NCBI GenBank assembly: GCA_036426205.1
Contig: WSYH01000662.1
Location: forward strand, 1 to 64,000
DNA: 64,000 nucleotides
Source: Ascaphus truei
Lineage: Eukaryota > Chordata > Amphibia > Anura > Ascaphidae
Reading direction: 5' to 3'
Shown here: positions 631 to 48,530 of the stretch, piece by piece
Layout: each line of letters begins with the position of its first letter
Numbering within the stretch: position 1 is the stretch's first letter
The notes under the pieces: generated by a model
Seen by the model: only the letters and a program-made list of their open reading frames with translations
Database searches by the model: none
Told to the model about the DNA's origin: nothing
Program-made: the position numbers and the translations under genes

Positions 631-675
631 TCTCCAGACGCGTTTCTCACCGCGAAGGCACTTTATCAAAGAGTG
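631..675 (-). ncRNA. Hammerhead-like ribozyme motif 1
   Basis: On the minus strand: CACTCT, core TTGATAA, a hairpin, GAGAAAC, GCGTC, TGGAGA. The final NUH is GTC. Stem I can form only with an offset (CTC with GAG). Core position 3 is U and position 8 is A, so it is probably a decayed copy. Confidence 0.4.
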
Positions 676-1684
676 ACCTGTGCTCTGTGAATATATCCCT
701 TAAATAGCATCTCCCTATCGGAGAGTAGTTTGCACAAACACCTGCTAATCTCACTAATCACATGGGATGCCAGTGAATGAGAATAGAAGCCTGGAGGCTC
801 CAAGTGGGGAGTTGCAGAGGGGGCCCATGCACCCATTGAGGGAGCTACATTATATGGGGCTCATTCTAGGGTAGTATAGTTCACCCCCCCTATCATCCCC
901 ACACGGGACATCAGGTGAAATGGTAATTGCATCATTCCACATACAACTGGGCTTTATTCACGGACCACAGATCCACTAAATTTGCTGCCTGATTCTTCAT
1001 GGTTCCAATGCTTTCATTCATGACATTACATTTTTATTATTTATACTTTTCCACATATTTAATAGCCATCAAGTTTTTGAAGCACCATCCAAGGACTCAT
1101 GCCCCACTTTTTTCTGCACCTACTGTATGACAGTACTACATAGCTGCAAATAAAACTGCCTACCATACAGTACTCCAAATAATTGTGTTGTAATATATAC
1201 TTAATTCCAGTGACTATGAATTTCATTTGCTCAGGTATATCTTCTTTCATTCCCAAAAAACATCAAATGGACTCACAACCCAAATCGGGCTATTTCTTGG
1301 CTAATACATTCTATGAAAAGAGGATATACCATTTATAATTAGCAAATTATTATTTATTTTAGTCTATTTTTTCAGTACTCTTAATTGCATTAAGAGATTG
1401 ATATTTATATGGACATGTTACATTTTGAATACTGGACATTATTTTAATATACAGTAGTGTTGCCCTAATTTTGGGGCATTTGTTTAATGTTCTCATAATG
1501 TATGTAACATGTGTATACTATTGATTGAATGTTTTATATGTATTTTTATGTATGCAGCATAAATTGATGTAAGATGACAATTCTATTCAGCAAGGAAACA
1601 GTTAACCCCATTAGAAAGGAGAAGAGGGGTTATCACTACATTTTATTGGGACTATATAAGGTTCAATGAGAGATAGGAGGGAAA

Positions 1685-1723
1685 TCCCTGTGAAAGCGAA
1701 TGTTATTGGTCAAACGCATAGGA
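1685..1723 (+). ncRNA. Hammerhead-like motif, degenerate
   Basis: TCC, then CTGTGAA, AGCGAATG, ATTGGTC, AAACGCATA, GGA. TCC/GGA can form a 3-bp stem I and the site ends in NUH (ATA). The core is mutated. Identified only by likeness to the better copies. Confidence 0.25.
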
Positions 1724-2913
1724 GCAGGTTACTAATGATAGTTGACCTGGAAGGAGAGCAGGACAACATGCAGAGGAGGTCTGTGATGGGGAAACATTTG
1801 GAAGTCCCACTTTGAGCCGTGACCCAGAAGGAGACTGGCTCATAGTGCTGGGATTCATGCTGCGGGAACAATTCTGAACTTTAACGCATAGCTGAAATCT
1901 ACTGATGGACTGGCGTAGAGTTCCTGCTCCCCCTTGAGAAACAGAGATCTATGTGCTTATTTGAAGCATGCATTTGTGAGTGCATTACCTACTTGCTGTT
2001 AATTATATTGATCTTTATAGACATATTACACTAATGTTGTTTTTTCTTCTTTTTTCCCCTTTCCTTTTTTCTTTAATGTGTTTTTTGTTTGTATGTCTGT
2101 CTGGTTATTCTCCCACAGGTTTGCACACTTCTATTTCTGAACTTTTGGCATTTTTTCAAGCCCTTTGGAAGGCTTGCTAGATCAGTATCACCTGTGACCT
2201 GACACTAACATCCGGTATTTTGTGAGATATTCACCATATATTAGTTAGACGTACGCATTTAAGTATATTGTTTATAGAACGGTCACTTTGTACTACTGCA
2301 CACTGTTTATTTATTTGTGCAGTATGTTGTGTTAAATGCACGTATTTACACCGTTTGCTATTTTACCTGACAATTGATACTTTGCATTTTAAGTCATTGA
2401 TATGCCTATAGAGTAGAACCACAGCATATTTATATAGAAGTCTGGGGACCTCTTGGTTCCTAAATATGGCAACCTGGGTCAGCCTCTGTCTGGCGACCAA
2501 TATTGATTGACGCTAATGGCCATATAGATTTTTTGTTTCTACACAGTTTAAAATTGGTTTCAAGATTACTTAAGTGTTAAATACTTCTGAACTGGAGTTT
2601 CTTGCTAGGAGAGCATAGAATTGTTGAACCTTGTAGAATTGTAATTTACTTTATTAATTTAGTGCTACAATGATATTTAAAATGGTATCTGGAAAAATAA
2701 ATATTGTATTGCCATTTCAATATTAGAATTTTTAACATTGGGCATGAGAAACATGAAAGTCTGCTTTTTGGAAATATAAGTTTCTCTCAATGTCCTGATC
2801 AAAAAGACTAGATAATTCTAGTGGAGGTGCTTTGTTATTAGCTAATGGAAAATAAAGTACTGTATGGTACTGTAAGTAATGGTATAACTGTACTATTTCC
2901 ATCTACTTTCCAG

Positions 2914-3132
2914 CTCCAACAGAAGTGATATTTTCATTTGATGTGGGGAATGGTCCTTTTGAGGTTGTAGTGCAGTCTCCAACGCATTTAAATGACAATC
3001 AATGGCACTATGTGAAGGCAGAAAGAAACATAAAAGAAGCATCTCTTCAAGTGGATCAGCAACCGCAAACAAATTATAATACTCCTTCTGATGGGCATAT
3101 CCGTTTGCAGCTTAACAGTCAGCTTTTCATAG
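2914..3132 (+). CDS. CNTNAP4: CNTNAP-family exon, end of third laminin-G domain
   Basis: Internal coding exon of 219 nt. It has a polypyrimidine tract and AG before 2914, and a GTAAGT donor at 3133. It enters with two bases of a split codon and leaves after one base (GGT is completed by the next exon). The reading PTEVIFSFDVGNGP is followed by NDNQWHYVKAERN and QLFIG, the typical beta-strand pattern of the third LamG domain of Caspr proteins, which are neuronal single-pass adhesion proteins of the neurexin superfamily. No stop or frameshift is visible. The family call is firm. CNTNAP4 (or CNTNAP3) is preferred over CNTNAP2 and CNTNAP5 from the LamG4 exon and is less certain. Upstream exons lie before the window. 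Confidence 0.9.
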
Positions 3133-4889
3133 GTAAGTGTTATATTTAAAAATGTAACTTAAAACATTAAAGATGACCTTATAGTATATTGATATTGCAA
3201 TTCACAGTAAATGCAGTGAATTGATCAGTTGCCCCTGATAATGCAGTACAGTTCTCACCTGTTTCACAGTGCTGTAAAAAAGGAAGCTGGTAGAATAAAT
3301 ACTGTATATACTGTATTGTGTAAAAGACTTAGGACCCTATTTAATACACTCACAGGAATGTGCTTTTAAAAAAAAAATGCAAGTGCCATTTGGGTTCATG
3401 TAATCGCTTTAGAAACGACTACATGACTGACACCACCCCTATTCCTGTCTGAGGCAAATGGAAGTGGGGTGGACTCCTCTTCCCTTTTGATTGGGCCAAC
3501 AACTCCAATCTATTTAATCATCCTCTGGAAAATGAGCATTTCCCCAGGATATAACTGGTATTTCAATAAAGCATCAGGCGTGTCAGGGCTGTAAGGTACC
3601 AAGGTACGCCATGAGGGCACTGAAAATCTTAATAAACTTGAATAAATTCGGTTTATATAAAGAAGAAATAATAAATACATAGACCATAATAGCAAGGCTA
3701 ACATATTTGTTTTCTGTTGTTTACAGCTGGGGATTTTCTTTCATTAACCTGTCATCTTATAAAACACAACTATAATAAATGACAAACAAACATTATATTT
3801 TCCTCATAAAACACAACTTCCTCTGTGTTTTTTTAATTCAGTGCTGTTCCCACAAGTTAGAGGGAACAATGTGTTTTTAAATTGAGACTTTTTCTCAAAT
3901 TCCATCATTCAGCATTTGTCTGTCAAATATTGGTTATATTGGCTGTGCCCTAGAAACATATACTGCACTTTACTATAATCAAGTGTTTTTTTTATACTAA
4001 ATGCTTTAACCATCCTTTCTATACTGTACAGTACATTACATACAATTATCAAAAATAATTGTGGTCTATGTGTTTATATTCAATTCAAAGGCAGAGGATA
4101 TGTGCTTCAAAGTGTTTGAAGAAATGGCTTTTGTAGATTGAGGGCATTTAATTATGGGAAGAAAGGGCTGATGTAGAAATAGTCTGTAGAATGCTAGATC
4201 TTTAGTATGCAACATCTATTTAAAAAGTAACTCTGAATTTGAAGTGATTATTAACCCAGGCATAATAGAATCAATTTATCATTGCAGTTTTACTGACCTT
4301 GAAAGCCTTCTTTTGGATTTTGACTCCCTCTATTTATCAAAAAGAAGAAATTGATTTATTGGAATAATGTTCATTAGAAGACAGCCGTTTCCATGAATTA
4401 CCTTGAAAATGTATTGTACCCCTCTGTTTAAACTAGTATTAAAAAAAAGAGAGAGAAAAGAATATGAGGAGCGCTATAATTCTTCCAACATTTCTTCTGA
4501 AGCTACTGTAGCAGTTGGAGAAATAATAAAATTCCTCAATTTCATCAGAAGGATAAACAAAATTGCTTTTTTTCACATATATAAGGCAGCAATCCACAAT
4601 TTTGTTAATGGTATCTGAACCAAGGTGTATACTTGAAGTAGGTATGAGGTATATGTAAATTTTGTGCCAGCTTGAGGTATGAAAAAACAATATGGCAGCT
4701 GGGTCTCCGATAGAAATCTAATATGTAATTTCCCAATGACATAGTCCAAGTAAAGGTTCACTCGTGATACCAGGTTAGAAGTCGCCACGGGTGCACAGCA
4801 ATAATGCTGGATGCGTAGTCCCTGTGTAATAGAAATAGAATAAGAGGCACTCCAGTGGTCTTCAAAAGATCATAACATTTATTGTACAA

Positions 4890-47509: not shown

Positions 47510-47640
47510 TATCTGCCATCGAATTTTATGTTTCTATGTTTAACACCAACTCTAGTTAACCTACTCAACTCATAGTGAGACTTATTCAAATATGAATTGC
47601 ATATATTGTACAAAACATTTTCATGAGAAAATTGGTCTGC

Positions 47641-47690
47641 TTAAGAGATATGATGGACCCTGTATGGGGTCAAAACGTTTATTTCAATTT
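47641..47690 (+). ncRNA. Hammerhead-like remnant
   Basis: TATGATG, GACCC/GGGTC stem II, AAAACGTTTA. Core and GAAA changed. Kept because stem II is perfect and layout matches. Confidence 0.25.
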
Positions 47691-47943
47691 ACCATAGTGA
47701 ATGAAAGAATAGCACTTATAGTTTTTGTCTGTCTGTCTGTCTGTCTGTCTATCAACAGTGTATGTTTTTAAGGATAGTAAATACATTGGTTGGCTGCTAA
47801 TGGAAAAGTGGCATTTCTTTCTTAATTTGGATATAGGTACATATAAATATTCCAAATTGTTGGTTTACATGCATAATATTAATGTGTATTGTGTTTTTTT
47901 TAATTCTGTAACATACACTGAACTAATTGTGCATTTGTTTCAG

Positions 47944-48168
47944 ATATATCAGCATACTTTGGATCTGGATCTTCATTAACCTATAACTTTCAAGATAATT
48001 ACACCATATCTAAAAATTCCAGCTTGCATGCTTCTCCTCTTTACTCAGACATGACTACTACTAGAGAAAGTATTGTATTAAGTTTCCGGACAACACAGAC
48101 TCCAAGCTTACTGCTTTTTGCAAGCTCTTTCTTTAAAGAATACATTTCAGTTATAATCTCAAAAAATG
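47944..48168 (+). CDS. CNTNAP4: CNTNAP-family exon, first part of fourth laminin-G domain
   Basis: 225-nt exon; acceptor TTTCAG before 47944, donor GTAGGT at 48169, phase 1 at both ends. The product starts DISAYFGSGSSLTYNF and continues through SIVLSFRTTQTPSLLLF to ISVIISKNG, the N-terminal half of LamG4. The SAYF..GSS.TY.F opening and FRTTQTPSLLL strand resemble CNTNAP4/CNTNAP3 more than CNTNAP2 by recollection of the families. A phylogeny would settle the paralogue. Confidence 0.9.
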
Positions 48169-48489
48169 GTAGGTACTGTACTGAAGCTTGAAACTAAATG
48201 TCTCACATATCTATAGTTGCTCCCAGCAAGCAATGTAAAGGAGAATCAGGCAAAGGTCAAATGTGAATAAAGAATATATTAAATGAACATAAGTAGATGC
48301 AACAAGCAATTGCCCTTAGATAGGCTATTGAGAGTAGATCTCATCAAGCAGAACTACACAATGTCAAAATAAAGGGTATAGGAGGAGTGGAGGAAAAAAA
48401 AGGGGGTCAAAAAACAAAAAGGATTAGAGGGGAGGGGTAGGAAAAACTATGTAAAACAATCATAAAAGATAAGGTGATATATACAAGTG

Positions 48490-48530
48490 GGGCAACGTTT
48501 CGGGGCTTAAATCGTCCCTTCTTCATGCCC
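48490..48530 (-). ncRNA. Hammerhead-like ribozyme motif
   Basis: Minus strand: stem I GGGC/GCCC, core ATGAAGA (C3 to A), A, stem II GGG/CCC around ACGATTTAAG, C, GAAAC, GTT as NUH. Stem I differs in sequence from all other copies yet pairs perfectly. Confidence 0.55.

Follow-up and report, generated by a model that had tools for sequence, protein, structure and literature searches.

Minimal hammerhead-like sites, likely derived from Penelope-like elements, in a 64-kb stretch of the Ascaphus truei genome

Hammerhead-like copies and their cores

The window, i.e., the whole 64-kb stretch of Ascaphus truei DNA analyzed here, holds eight copies resembling the hammerhead, a small self-cleaving RNA, at six loci, each combining a core with stems I and II. 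A preliminary description of this DNA had reported at least sixteen sites sharing one layout in unrelated surroundings. Outer arm, YTGANRA, stem II hairpin, GAAAC, a short gap, NUH, and a second outer arm do follow one another in this order on both strands, where strict and graded scans exceed shuffled sequence. As to the number, our analysis supports the eight copies listed below, two pairs of which lie in inverted elements, and finds four more places weak.

10208-12046, unstranded: head-to-head inverted element E1, with arms of ~0.9 kb and a 42-nt spacer
23602-25577, unstranded: head-to-head inverted insertion E2, with a long minus copy (25002-23602) and a short plus copy (25003-25577); its ends are the limits of the inverted match
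30745-30791, minus strand: hammerhead-like site 30783, consensus core CTGATGA...GAAAC-GC-GTA, stem I CACTC/GAGTG, stem II CCG/CGG; found by the scans and the core-only test
39358-39403, minus strand: hammerhead-like site 39395, CTGAGGA...AAAAT-GC-GTT, GAAAC decayed to AAAAT, stem I ACATCA/TGATGT
10320-10366, minus strand: hammerhead-like site 10358, U3-A8 core TTGATAA, stem I CACT/AGTG, in E1; strict scan and core-only test
11889-11935, plus strand: hammerhead-like site 11897, U3-A8 core, in E1; strict scan and core-only test
23831-23880, minus strand: hammerhead-like site 23872, U3-A8 core TTGAGAA, stem I GGGC/GCCC, in the left copy of E2; both scans and core-only test
25312-25361, plus strand: hammerhead-like site 25320, U3-A8 core, in the right copy of E2; both scans
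17729-17776, plus strand: hammerhead-like site 17737, CTGAGGA...GAAAC-GC-GTT, stem I GAAC/GTTC, weak stem II
48486-48534, minus strand: hammerhead-like site 48526, ATGAAGA...GAAAC-GTT, with A instead of C3

Not all of these copies are separate observations. Site 23872 is the same DNA as site 25320 in the opposite copy of E2, and sites 10358 and 11897 (10324 and 11893 in the preliminary description) are not independent because they occupy the two arms of one inverted element. A flank, GGGAACGGGC/GTTGCCCC, is common to 48526 and E2 (25320), and the stem II of 48526 is different yet paired; judging by the shared GGGAACGGGC, the two loci are probably related.

The core CUGANGA...GAAA...NUH is intact at 30783 and 17737, and its U3-A8 variant occurs at 11897/10358 and 25320/23872. 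Departures are A3 at 48526 and AAAAT at 39395, i.e., the core is kept at four of six loci if U3-A8 is counted. Helix III is very short or missing, with 0-4 nt between GAAAC and NUH and 1-2 bp only.

Statistical support and predicted folds

The strict scan returned 10 distinct sites, against 9 in 20 dinucleotide shuffles taken together (0.45 per shuffle, at most 2). Five of the ten belong to the eight supported copies, two are weak candidates (-37876 and -26347), and three (+56569, -59659, and -4052) are taken as chance; sites 17737, 39395, and 48526, with a stem II or core outside the scan rules, are missed. In the graded scan, five sites scored at least 7, compared with 0.03 per shuffle (30 shuffles). 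When independent sites were selected by core only, at least four stem I pairs formed in 5 of 9, while permuting the arms gave a mean of 1.0 such sites and reached five in 3 of 20,000 permutations.

Stems I and II and core pair 3-8 covary, with a covariation score matched by none of 500 shuffles for these six loci from one window. Across ten pairs and six loci, 87.7% of 57 cells are paired and both sides have changed in 22; no shuffle out of 500 was as high for pairing or double-change cells, and one was for the counts of changed pairs and pair types. Slid structures at the six loci are paired in only 32-41%.

A covariance model, R1, was trained on the three loci with a PLE-like coding end (30783, 39395, and 25320; PLE, Penelope-like element). 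In its ranking of the window, the training loci, along with the inverted twin of one training locus, are followed directly by the four held-out copies, with E-values of 0.00045 (17737), 0.0022 (48526), 0.021 (11897), and 0.036 (10358), which are optimistic because R1 yields 25 matches at E 1-10 where 9 are expected. R1 also matches positions 607-652 on the plus strand (E 0.037), a place without GAAAC. The Rfam models return no hammerhead in the window, either at gathering score or up to E = 10. A match to an Rfam model is a search aid and not a defining trait of the minimal hammerhead form. Together, the core-only test, the shuffles, and the held-out matches support the hammerhead-like fold with covarying stem I claimed in the preliminary description.

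Four further places are weak or decayed.

37838-37884, minus strand: weak candidate -37876, CTGAAGA...GAAAG-CTT, with a strong stem II, then a tail ending at an AT repeat
26307-26355, minus strand: weak candidate -26347, TTGAGGA...GAAAT-GC-GTA, within a strong competing hairpin (fold z = -3.85)
629-676, minus strand: weak or decayed candidate -669, TTGATAA...GAAAC-GC-GTC, without stem I
37484-37530, minus strand: -37524, related to the 669 site but decayed, core TTGATAT

Candidate -37876 has an E-value of 1.7 with the other covariance model, R2, no R1 match up to 10, and a best fold that is not a hammerhead; -26347 reaches 1.1 with R1 and 0.58 with R2. Candidate -669, placed at 631 in the preliminary description, has a stem I run of 0 in the scanned register (R1 E = 3.3; R2 E = 5.9). 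Site -37524, given as 37488 (CTCT/AGAG) in the preliminary description, is detected by neither R1 nor R2 up to E = 10 and does not take the hammerhead form at minimum energy.

That the family merely collects chance matches in a repeat-rich 64-kb window is barely credible. These four places are at chance level by R1/R2, and chance probably also accounts for three of the ten strict-scan sites, but the scan excess over shuffles, the core-only test, and the held-out R1 matches speak against such an origin; for the six main loci within the window, chance is unlikely.

Minimum-energy folds contain stems I and II at 30783, 39395, 25320, 11897, and 48526, with 2-4 extra pairs inside the core in four of these five, and folding energies are ordinary at the six main loci (z from -1.5 to 0.0). 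At 17737 the best fold is a competing 31-bp hairpin (17700-17788) and not a hammerhead. Under a rival reading, the sites are hairpin elements that simply resemble hammerheads, with a GAAACGCGT-type half paired to its inverted copy; such a hairpin is the best fold here and at 26300-26362. The other five main loci, however, fold differently at minimum energy, and there is covariation in both stems and in the 3-8 core pair, which makes this explanation very improbable.

Coding ends and inverted elements

Three PLE-like C-termini, each with a stop 19 residues past the start of the motif in a six-frame scan, lie 340, 373, and 1060 nt upstream of a hammerhead-like site on the same strand.

31156-31215, minus strand: PLE-like ORF C-terminus LKTIHPQGLNLEFDIKPFL*, 373 nt upstream of 30783
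39735-40147, minus strand: frameshifted 3' part of a PLE-like ORF with a GIY-YIG-like segment, QQYVGRT...LQTLAPLGLNIDMEYAAFL*, 340 nt upstream of 39395
40148-40388, plus strand: inverted 5' piece of the same ORF, overlapping the minus piece by 57 bp (40091-40147 / 40332-40388)
24932-24991, minus strand: PLE-like ORF C-terminus LDTLSPRGMNKELDLSCYF*, 1060 nt upstream of 23872

The motif matched three times in the six frames of the window and never in 200 shuffles, with a regular expression tightened after the three fragments had been seen (a looser form matched dozens of times). By a hand estimate, chance placement of the three coding ends has a probability of (8 x 1100/128000)^3, or ~3e-4. From their motifs, we take the three fragments to be probably PLE. 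For the fragment at 39735-40147, no match was found in Pfam, in ~5.8 billion proteins, or in viral contigs, the PDB sequences gave a single meaningless match (E 0.52), and the predicted fold was poor (mean pLDDT 55.7); the PLE name thus rests on sequence motifs that no search confirmed. No PLE reverse transcriptase domain was identified, and no coding end was found for E1, 17737, or 48526.

Partial copies are inverted head to head in E1, in E2, and at the 57-bp-overlap inversion at 40.1-40.4 kb. In E1 and E2 the hammerhead reads outward and is followed by a tail, 119-237 nt from each end; the predicted cuts in E1 lie 120 nt from its left end (10358) and 119 nt from its right end (11897). E3 is unlike both, with a hammerhead-to-end distance of 540 nt.

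E1, E2, and E3 are all long inverted repeats, and E1 is without a coding end, as might be expected if the sites belonged to the terminal inverted repeats of fold-back elements or DNA transposons and owed their pairing to the inverted ends. This origin, already named in the preliminary description for a single DNA transposon, is improbable. Both strands of stem I lie inside one arm, ~50 nt apart; no inverted partner of 30783, 39395, or 48526 reached the BLAST threshold used; and a PLE-like coding end sits inside E2 and the 39.0-40.4 kb element. Pfam showed no transposase, nor any family above cut-off, in 20 of the 24 frames of at least 55 aa overlapping E1-E3, and inspection by eye showed no target duplication at either E1 or E2. 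Inverted copies are, moreover, a published form of Penelope insertions (PMC3846280). A non-autonomous DNA transposon would lack a transposase anyway.

Retrozymes, non-autonomous tandem repeats of 170-400 nt with type I hammerheads, share the ribozyme class and have been described from axolotl and other amphibians (PMC7229834). Here, tandem arrays of 170-400 bp are absent at every site, helix III is without the capped stem reported for retrozymes of axolotl, and probable coding ends precede three sites; a retrozyme origin is accordingly very unlikely.

The core, altered at two of six loci, and the paired arms of the eight sites match minimal type I hammerheads, whose likely place here is the pseudo-LTR (pLTR) and tail of PLEs; they are predicted to cut a tandem transcript where the pLTR meets the ORF. 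Arrangement and covariation are features of the DNA itself, and so are the same-strand coding-end fragments upstream of three sites; we infer a PLE origin both for these fragments and for the elements in which no coding end was found (E1, 17737, and 48526). The Penelope-like origin guessed in the preliminary description gains support from these probable coding ends. Since helix III has just 1-2 bp, cleavage would probably depend on two hammerheads forming a dimer or on assistance from the protein that the element encodes, in line with publications on other PLE hammerheads. For insertion, an AT-rich target would be nicked and reverse transcription would start inside the tail, immediately 3' of the hammerhead, which would leave the hammerheads at their observed distances from the ends of E1 and E2. 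Priming from both target strands would then produce a single insertion with two head-to-head copies and tails outward, as observed in E1 and E2. Within the window the copies are truncated and probably dead, so any function would have belonged to their parent elements.

Whether a PLE left E1 and E2 as genomic footprints of target-primed reverse transcription from two strands is a more tentative matter, possible but on balance doubtful. Two template RNAs, one per target strand, would start in the tail beside the hammerhead and meet head to head. The two arms of E2 differ by a block replacement close to the tail and by 18 transversions against 9 transitions, a pattern not readily expected of a self-primed snap-back copy.

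Relation to published hammerheads

Minimal hammerheads without helix III are in print for animal PLEs generally and for axolotl (PMC7761336, PMC7229834), which does not support the suggestion in the preliminary description that such a set may be undescribed. As described in papers citing Cervera and de la Pena (2014) and Lunse et al. (2017), the minimal PLE hammerheads resemble ours in their type I layout with stems I and II, nearly absent helix III, likely pLTR position on the ORF strand, and expected help from a dimer or protein. Compared with those hammerheads, the sequences here are different, U3-A8 replaces C3-G8 at two of six loci, and a competing hairpin exists at one main and one weak locus. 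Repeat-associated hammerheads of Xenopus tropicalis have been published, as has an active U3-A8 core variant with 3-8 covariation (PMC3088659). In that variant, as in the window, the core pair changes from C-G to U-A with pairing kept, in several hammerheads there and at two loci, likely of PLE origin, here. The axolotl/newt satellite or retrozyme hammerheads (PMC7229834) are likewise type I with a weak helix III, but they sit in tandem repeats of 330-350 bp and their helix III is capped, neither of which is seen at the sites here.

In PLEs, the hammerhead has been placed at the pLTR-ORF junction, the tail attributed to an internal start of reverse transcription, and both target strands found to be cleaved and extended; insertion in vitro was unaffected when hammerhead activity was removed (PMC11167929). 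PAc, the Poseidon PLE of Anolis carolinensis from the same work, also carries its hammerhead near the insertion end with a tail 3' of it. Tails past the predicted cut measure 119-237 nt here versus ~85-92 in PAc (by subtraction from the numbers in PMC11167929). A reading frame of 44 codons at 30783, and one of 39 at 48526, starts from an ATG inside the core, near where the PAc ORF starts, whereas the window copies have no intact ORF. Penelope elements of Adineta vaga, for which head-to-head inverted pLTRs are published, similarly show inverted copies, tails, and 5' truncations (PMC3846280), but several rotifer insertions have a target duplication, none of which was seen here by eye, and the coding ends here are fragments.

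To conclude, these are a known kind of element, likely represented by new members and no new mechanism. In one 64-kb stretch, several repeat families with little else in common keep the same hammerhead layout while the arms change. Since Rfam reports none of these sites, large genomes may contain more PLE hammerheads than have been counted. If the two-strand footprint reading is true, E1 and E2 distinguish between the two origins proposed for inverted copies of Penelope. The outward-facing inverted copies would make it possible to ask, from sequence only, whether PLEs prime DNA synthesis on both strands.

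Hammerhead-like sites and pairing of stem I

The preliminary description had proposed a family of at least sixteen sites sharing a hammerhead layout, and this layout is present in the window under both a strict and a graded scan. The strict rules (YTGANRA, GAAAN, and NUH, with stems I and II each 3 bp or longer) returned 10 distinct sites, whereas 20 dinucleotide shuffles gave 9 altogether, and the graded scan scored 5 sites at 7 or higher, versus 0.03 per shuffle (30 shuffles). Half of the strict-scan sites (5/10) are supported copies, two are weak candidates, and three (+56569, -59659, and -4052) were excluded and taken as chance. 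Rfam, run on the window at gathering scores and at E values up to 10, gave no hammerhead match. Judged from sequence, the hammerhead claim is supported by eight copies at six loci, named here by strand and position of core residue 3, and chance was rejected as an account of this set.

Supported copies
-30783, minus strand
-39395, minus strand
-23872 and +25320, within the inverted element E2
-10358 and +11897, within the inverted element E1
+17737, within the inverted element E3
-48526, minus strand

Selection on the core only (TGANRA, 12 to 20 nt, GAAAC), which ignores stem I and, unlike the alignment test described below, is not biased towards structure, yielded 12 sites, or 9 once -10358, -23872, and -25420, each the second arm of an inverted duplicate, were dropped; 39395 is outside this count because it has no GAAAC. 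At least four consecutive stem I pairs (G-U allowed) occur in five of the nine, a count in which 25320 and 48526 are possibly related. Permuting the 5' arms gave a mean of 1.0 sites, with 3 of 20,000 permutations reaching 5, and random window arms gave a mean of 0.22, with 0 of 20,000 reaching 5. The four sites failing stem I are 1574, 23772, 30461, and 669.

When the six loci were aligned with the hammerhead structure written out (alignment A2), 87.7% of 57 cells were paired and 22 were changed on both sides, in rows selected partly for pairing, so that this covariation test leans towards structure. None of 500 shuffles matched the paired fraction, the both-side changes, or the covariation score, one of 500 attained the changed-pair and pair-type counts, and pairing fell to 32-41% when the partner was slid by 1-3 columns. 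A stronger test came from R1, a covariance model trained on 30783, 39395, and 25320, each with an upstream coding end resembling that of Penelope-like elements (PLEs). The training loci and the inverted twin of 25320 took the top ranks, and the held-out copies followed directly, at 17729-17776 (E 0.00045), 48486-48534 (0.0022), 11889-11935 (0.021), and 10320-10366 (0.036), E values that are 2-3 times too favourable, since 25 matches fall between E 1 and 10. The proposed hammerhead-like fold with covarying stem I is supported within the window.

The weak sites -669, -37524 (37488 in the preliminary description), -37876, and -26347 were excluded from the supported set on the core-only test and on R1 and a second covariance model, R2. 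Next in the R1 list after the held-out copies was 607-652 (+), at E 0.037 (R2, 0.043); this match, without GAAAC, was also excluded. After the weak site 37876 (minus strand; 37640-37895) runs a tail of roughly 135 nt ending at an AT repeat, the form that integration into an AT-rich target would be expected to give. A minus-strand site at 3860-3906 (core TTGAGAA, AAAAC, stem I GGAAT/GTTCC), outside the R2 training set, matched R2 at E 0.0046 and R1 at E 1.8; no PLE flank was seen around it, leaving it as a lead outside the supported set.

Stems I and II appear in the minimum-energy folds of 30783, 39395, 25320, 11897, and 48526, four of which carry 2-4 extra pairs inside the core. The minimum-energy fold of 17737 is another hairpin, and folding energies of the main sites are ordinary. 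Core pair 3-8 in A2 is C-G at three loci, U-A at two, and unpaired at one. Several natural hammerheads are reported to have U3 and A8 as a covarying replacement of C3 and G8, and ribozymes of this kind to be active in vitro (PMC3088659); the TTGATAA and TTGAGAA cores of the window therefore need not be broken. Loci 25320 and 48526 have the flank GGGAACGGGC ... GTTGCCCC in common, with stem II quite different in sequence and paired in both.

Two unrelated loci, 17700-17788 and 26300-26362, each have a longer hairpin with a hammerhead core in its loop; the 5' arm repeats the GAAAC-side half in inverted orientation (a perfect 31 nt at the former; fold z = -3.85 at the latter). Such hairpins may represent another possible fold or result from template switching. 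At 30745-30791 (-) and 48486-48534 (-), frames of 44 and 39 codons, respectively, open at an ATG inside the core; the other main sites lack an ATG there. Both ATGs sit at a position close to that of the ORF start in the Anolis PLE, PAc, and may mark a former PLE ORF start or be due to chance.

PLE-like coding ends and inverted elements

A regular expression for what we take to be the C-terminal end of PLE ORFs matched three times in the six frames of the window, versus none in 200 shuffles, a count that is not blind, the motif having been tightened after fragments were seen with a looser form.

PLE-like C-termini (motif match)
LDTLSPRGMNKELDLSCYF, minus strand
LKTIHPQGLNLEFDIKPFL, minus strand
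LQTLAPLGLNIDMEYAAFL, minus strand

All three reach a stop 19 residues past the motif start, and they lie 1060, 373, and 340 nt upstream of 23872, 30783, and 39395, respectively, on the same strand. By hand estimate, three random places would each lie no more than 1100 nt upstream of one of the eight sites with a joint chance of about 3e-4, the limit being fixed after the fact. The third fragment, upstream of 39395, continues back through a segment read as GIY-YIG (QQYVGRT...), and another piece of this ORF, from farther upstream, lies in reverse orientation at 40148-40388, the overlap being 57 bp. None of 44 protein candidates matched the joined fragment at E 0.001 or better; Pfam gave zero matches at E up to 10, PDB sequences gave one match only, a designed protein (E 0.52), and none of the 11 viral-contig stretches matching the pattern was confirmed. 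The PLE name is thus without confirmation from these databases. Structure prediction of the GIY-YIG fragment was poor (mean pLDDT 55.7, pTM 0.33).

Large inverted elements
10208-12046, E1, head-to-head inverted pair
23602-25577, E2, head-to-head inverted pair
17216-18279, E3, third large inverted element

The hammerhead reads outward in both E1 and E2, and the predicted cut lies 119-120 nt (E1) or 224-237 nt (E2) inside the outer boundary of the inverted match. The left copy of E2 reaches as far back as the ORF end; the right one ends at 25003. In E3, unlike E1 and E2, 540 nt separate the site from the right end. Between the two arms of E2 there are 9 transitions, 18 transversions, and, close to the tail, a replaced block; part of the transversion excess falls in the badly aligned block. 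E1 (25 transitions, 22 transversions) and E3 (10 and 8) have no such excess. The E2 differences at most hint at two templates.

That such inverted ends belong to a DNA transposon, and alone explain the pairing, was rejected: in 20 of the 24 frames of at least 55 aa overlapping E1-E3, Pfam gave neither a transposase nor any other family above cut-off. Retrozymes were rejected, no tandem array of 170-400 bp being found at the sites. The form of E1 and E2 fits published PLE biology. PAc is described with a hammerhead at the pLTR-ORF junction, reverse transcription that begins inside the RNA and produces a tail, and AT-rich targets whose two strands are each cleaved and extended (PMC11167929). For rotifer Penelope, inverted pLTRs are described as common, as are head-to-head arrangements, with self-priming proposed (PMC3846280).

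Other elements in the window

Further features
7406-8627, LINE-like frame (Pfam RVT_1, E 7.6e-17)
29050-36500, plus strand, LINE with ORF1-like and RT-like frames (by eye)
53998-58378, LINE-like frames
60155-60718, plus strand, transposase fragment (Pfam DDE_Tnp_4, E 9.5e-19), presumably Harbinger-type
44556-44954 and 45160-45560, direct repeat of ~400 bp (90% identity)
45681-45846, 57-bp tandem repeat following the direct repeat
46122-46315, 47213-47511, 52031-52209, 14139-14263, and 11068-11189, near-perfect palindromes

The LINE at 29050-36500 is apparently interrupted, at 30.0-32.5 kb, by the minus-strand element bearing the 30783 site. The five palindromes, of which 11068-11189 is the centre of E1, have sub-threshold Rfam microRNA matches, most on both strands, and are probably repeat hairpins.

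Relation to known hammerheads

Minimal type I hammerheads are reported by the thousands in many metazoan genomes, and those of PLEs are described as conserved, without helix III, and arranged in tandem, perhaps cleaving as dimers (PMC7761336). Such motifs were stated to occur in all PLE sequences then available (PMC6155905), and further accounts describe axolotl PLEs with minimal hammerheads (PMC7229834), repeat-associated hammerheads in Xenopus tropicalis (PMC3088659), and PLE-type hammerheads in Terminons (PMC6431247). We make no claim that the sequence families of the set are unpublished, which a literature search could not show. Given these published examples, the set in the Ascaphus truei window likely represents a further batch within the already known minimal hammerheads of PLEs.
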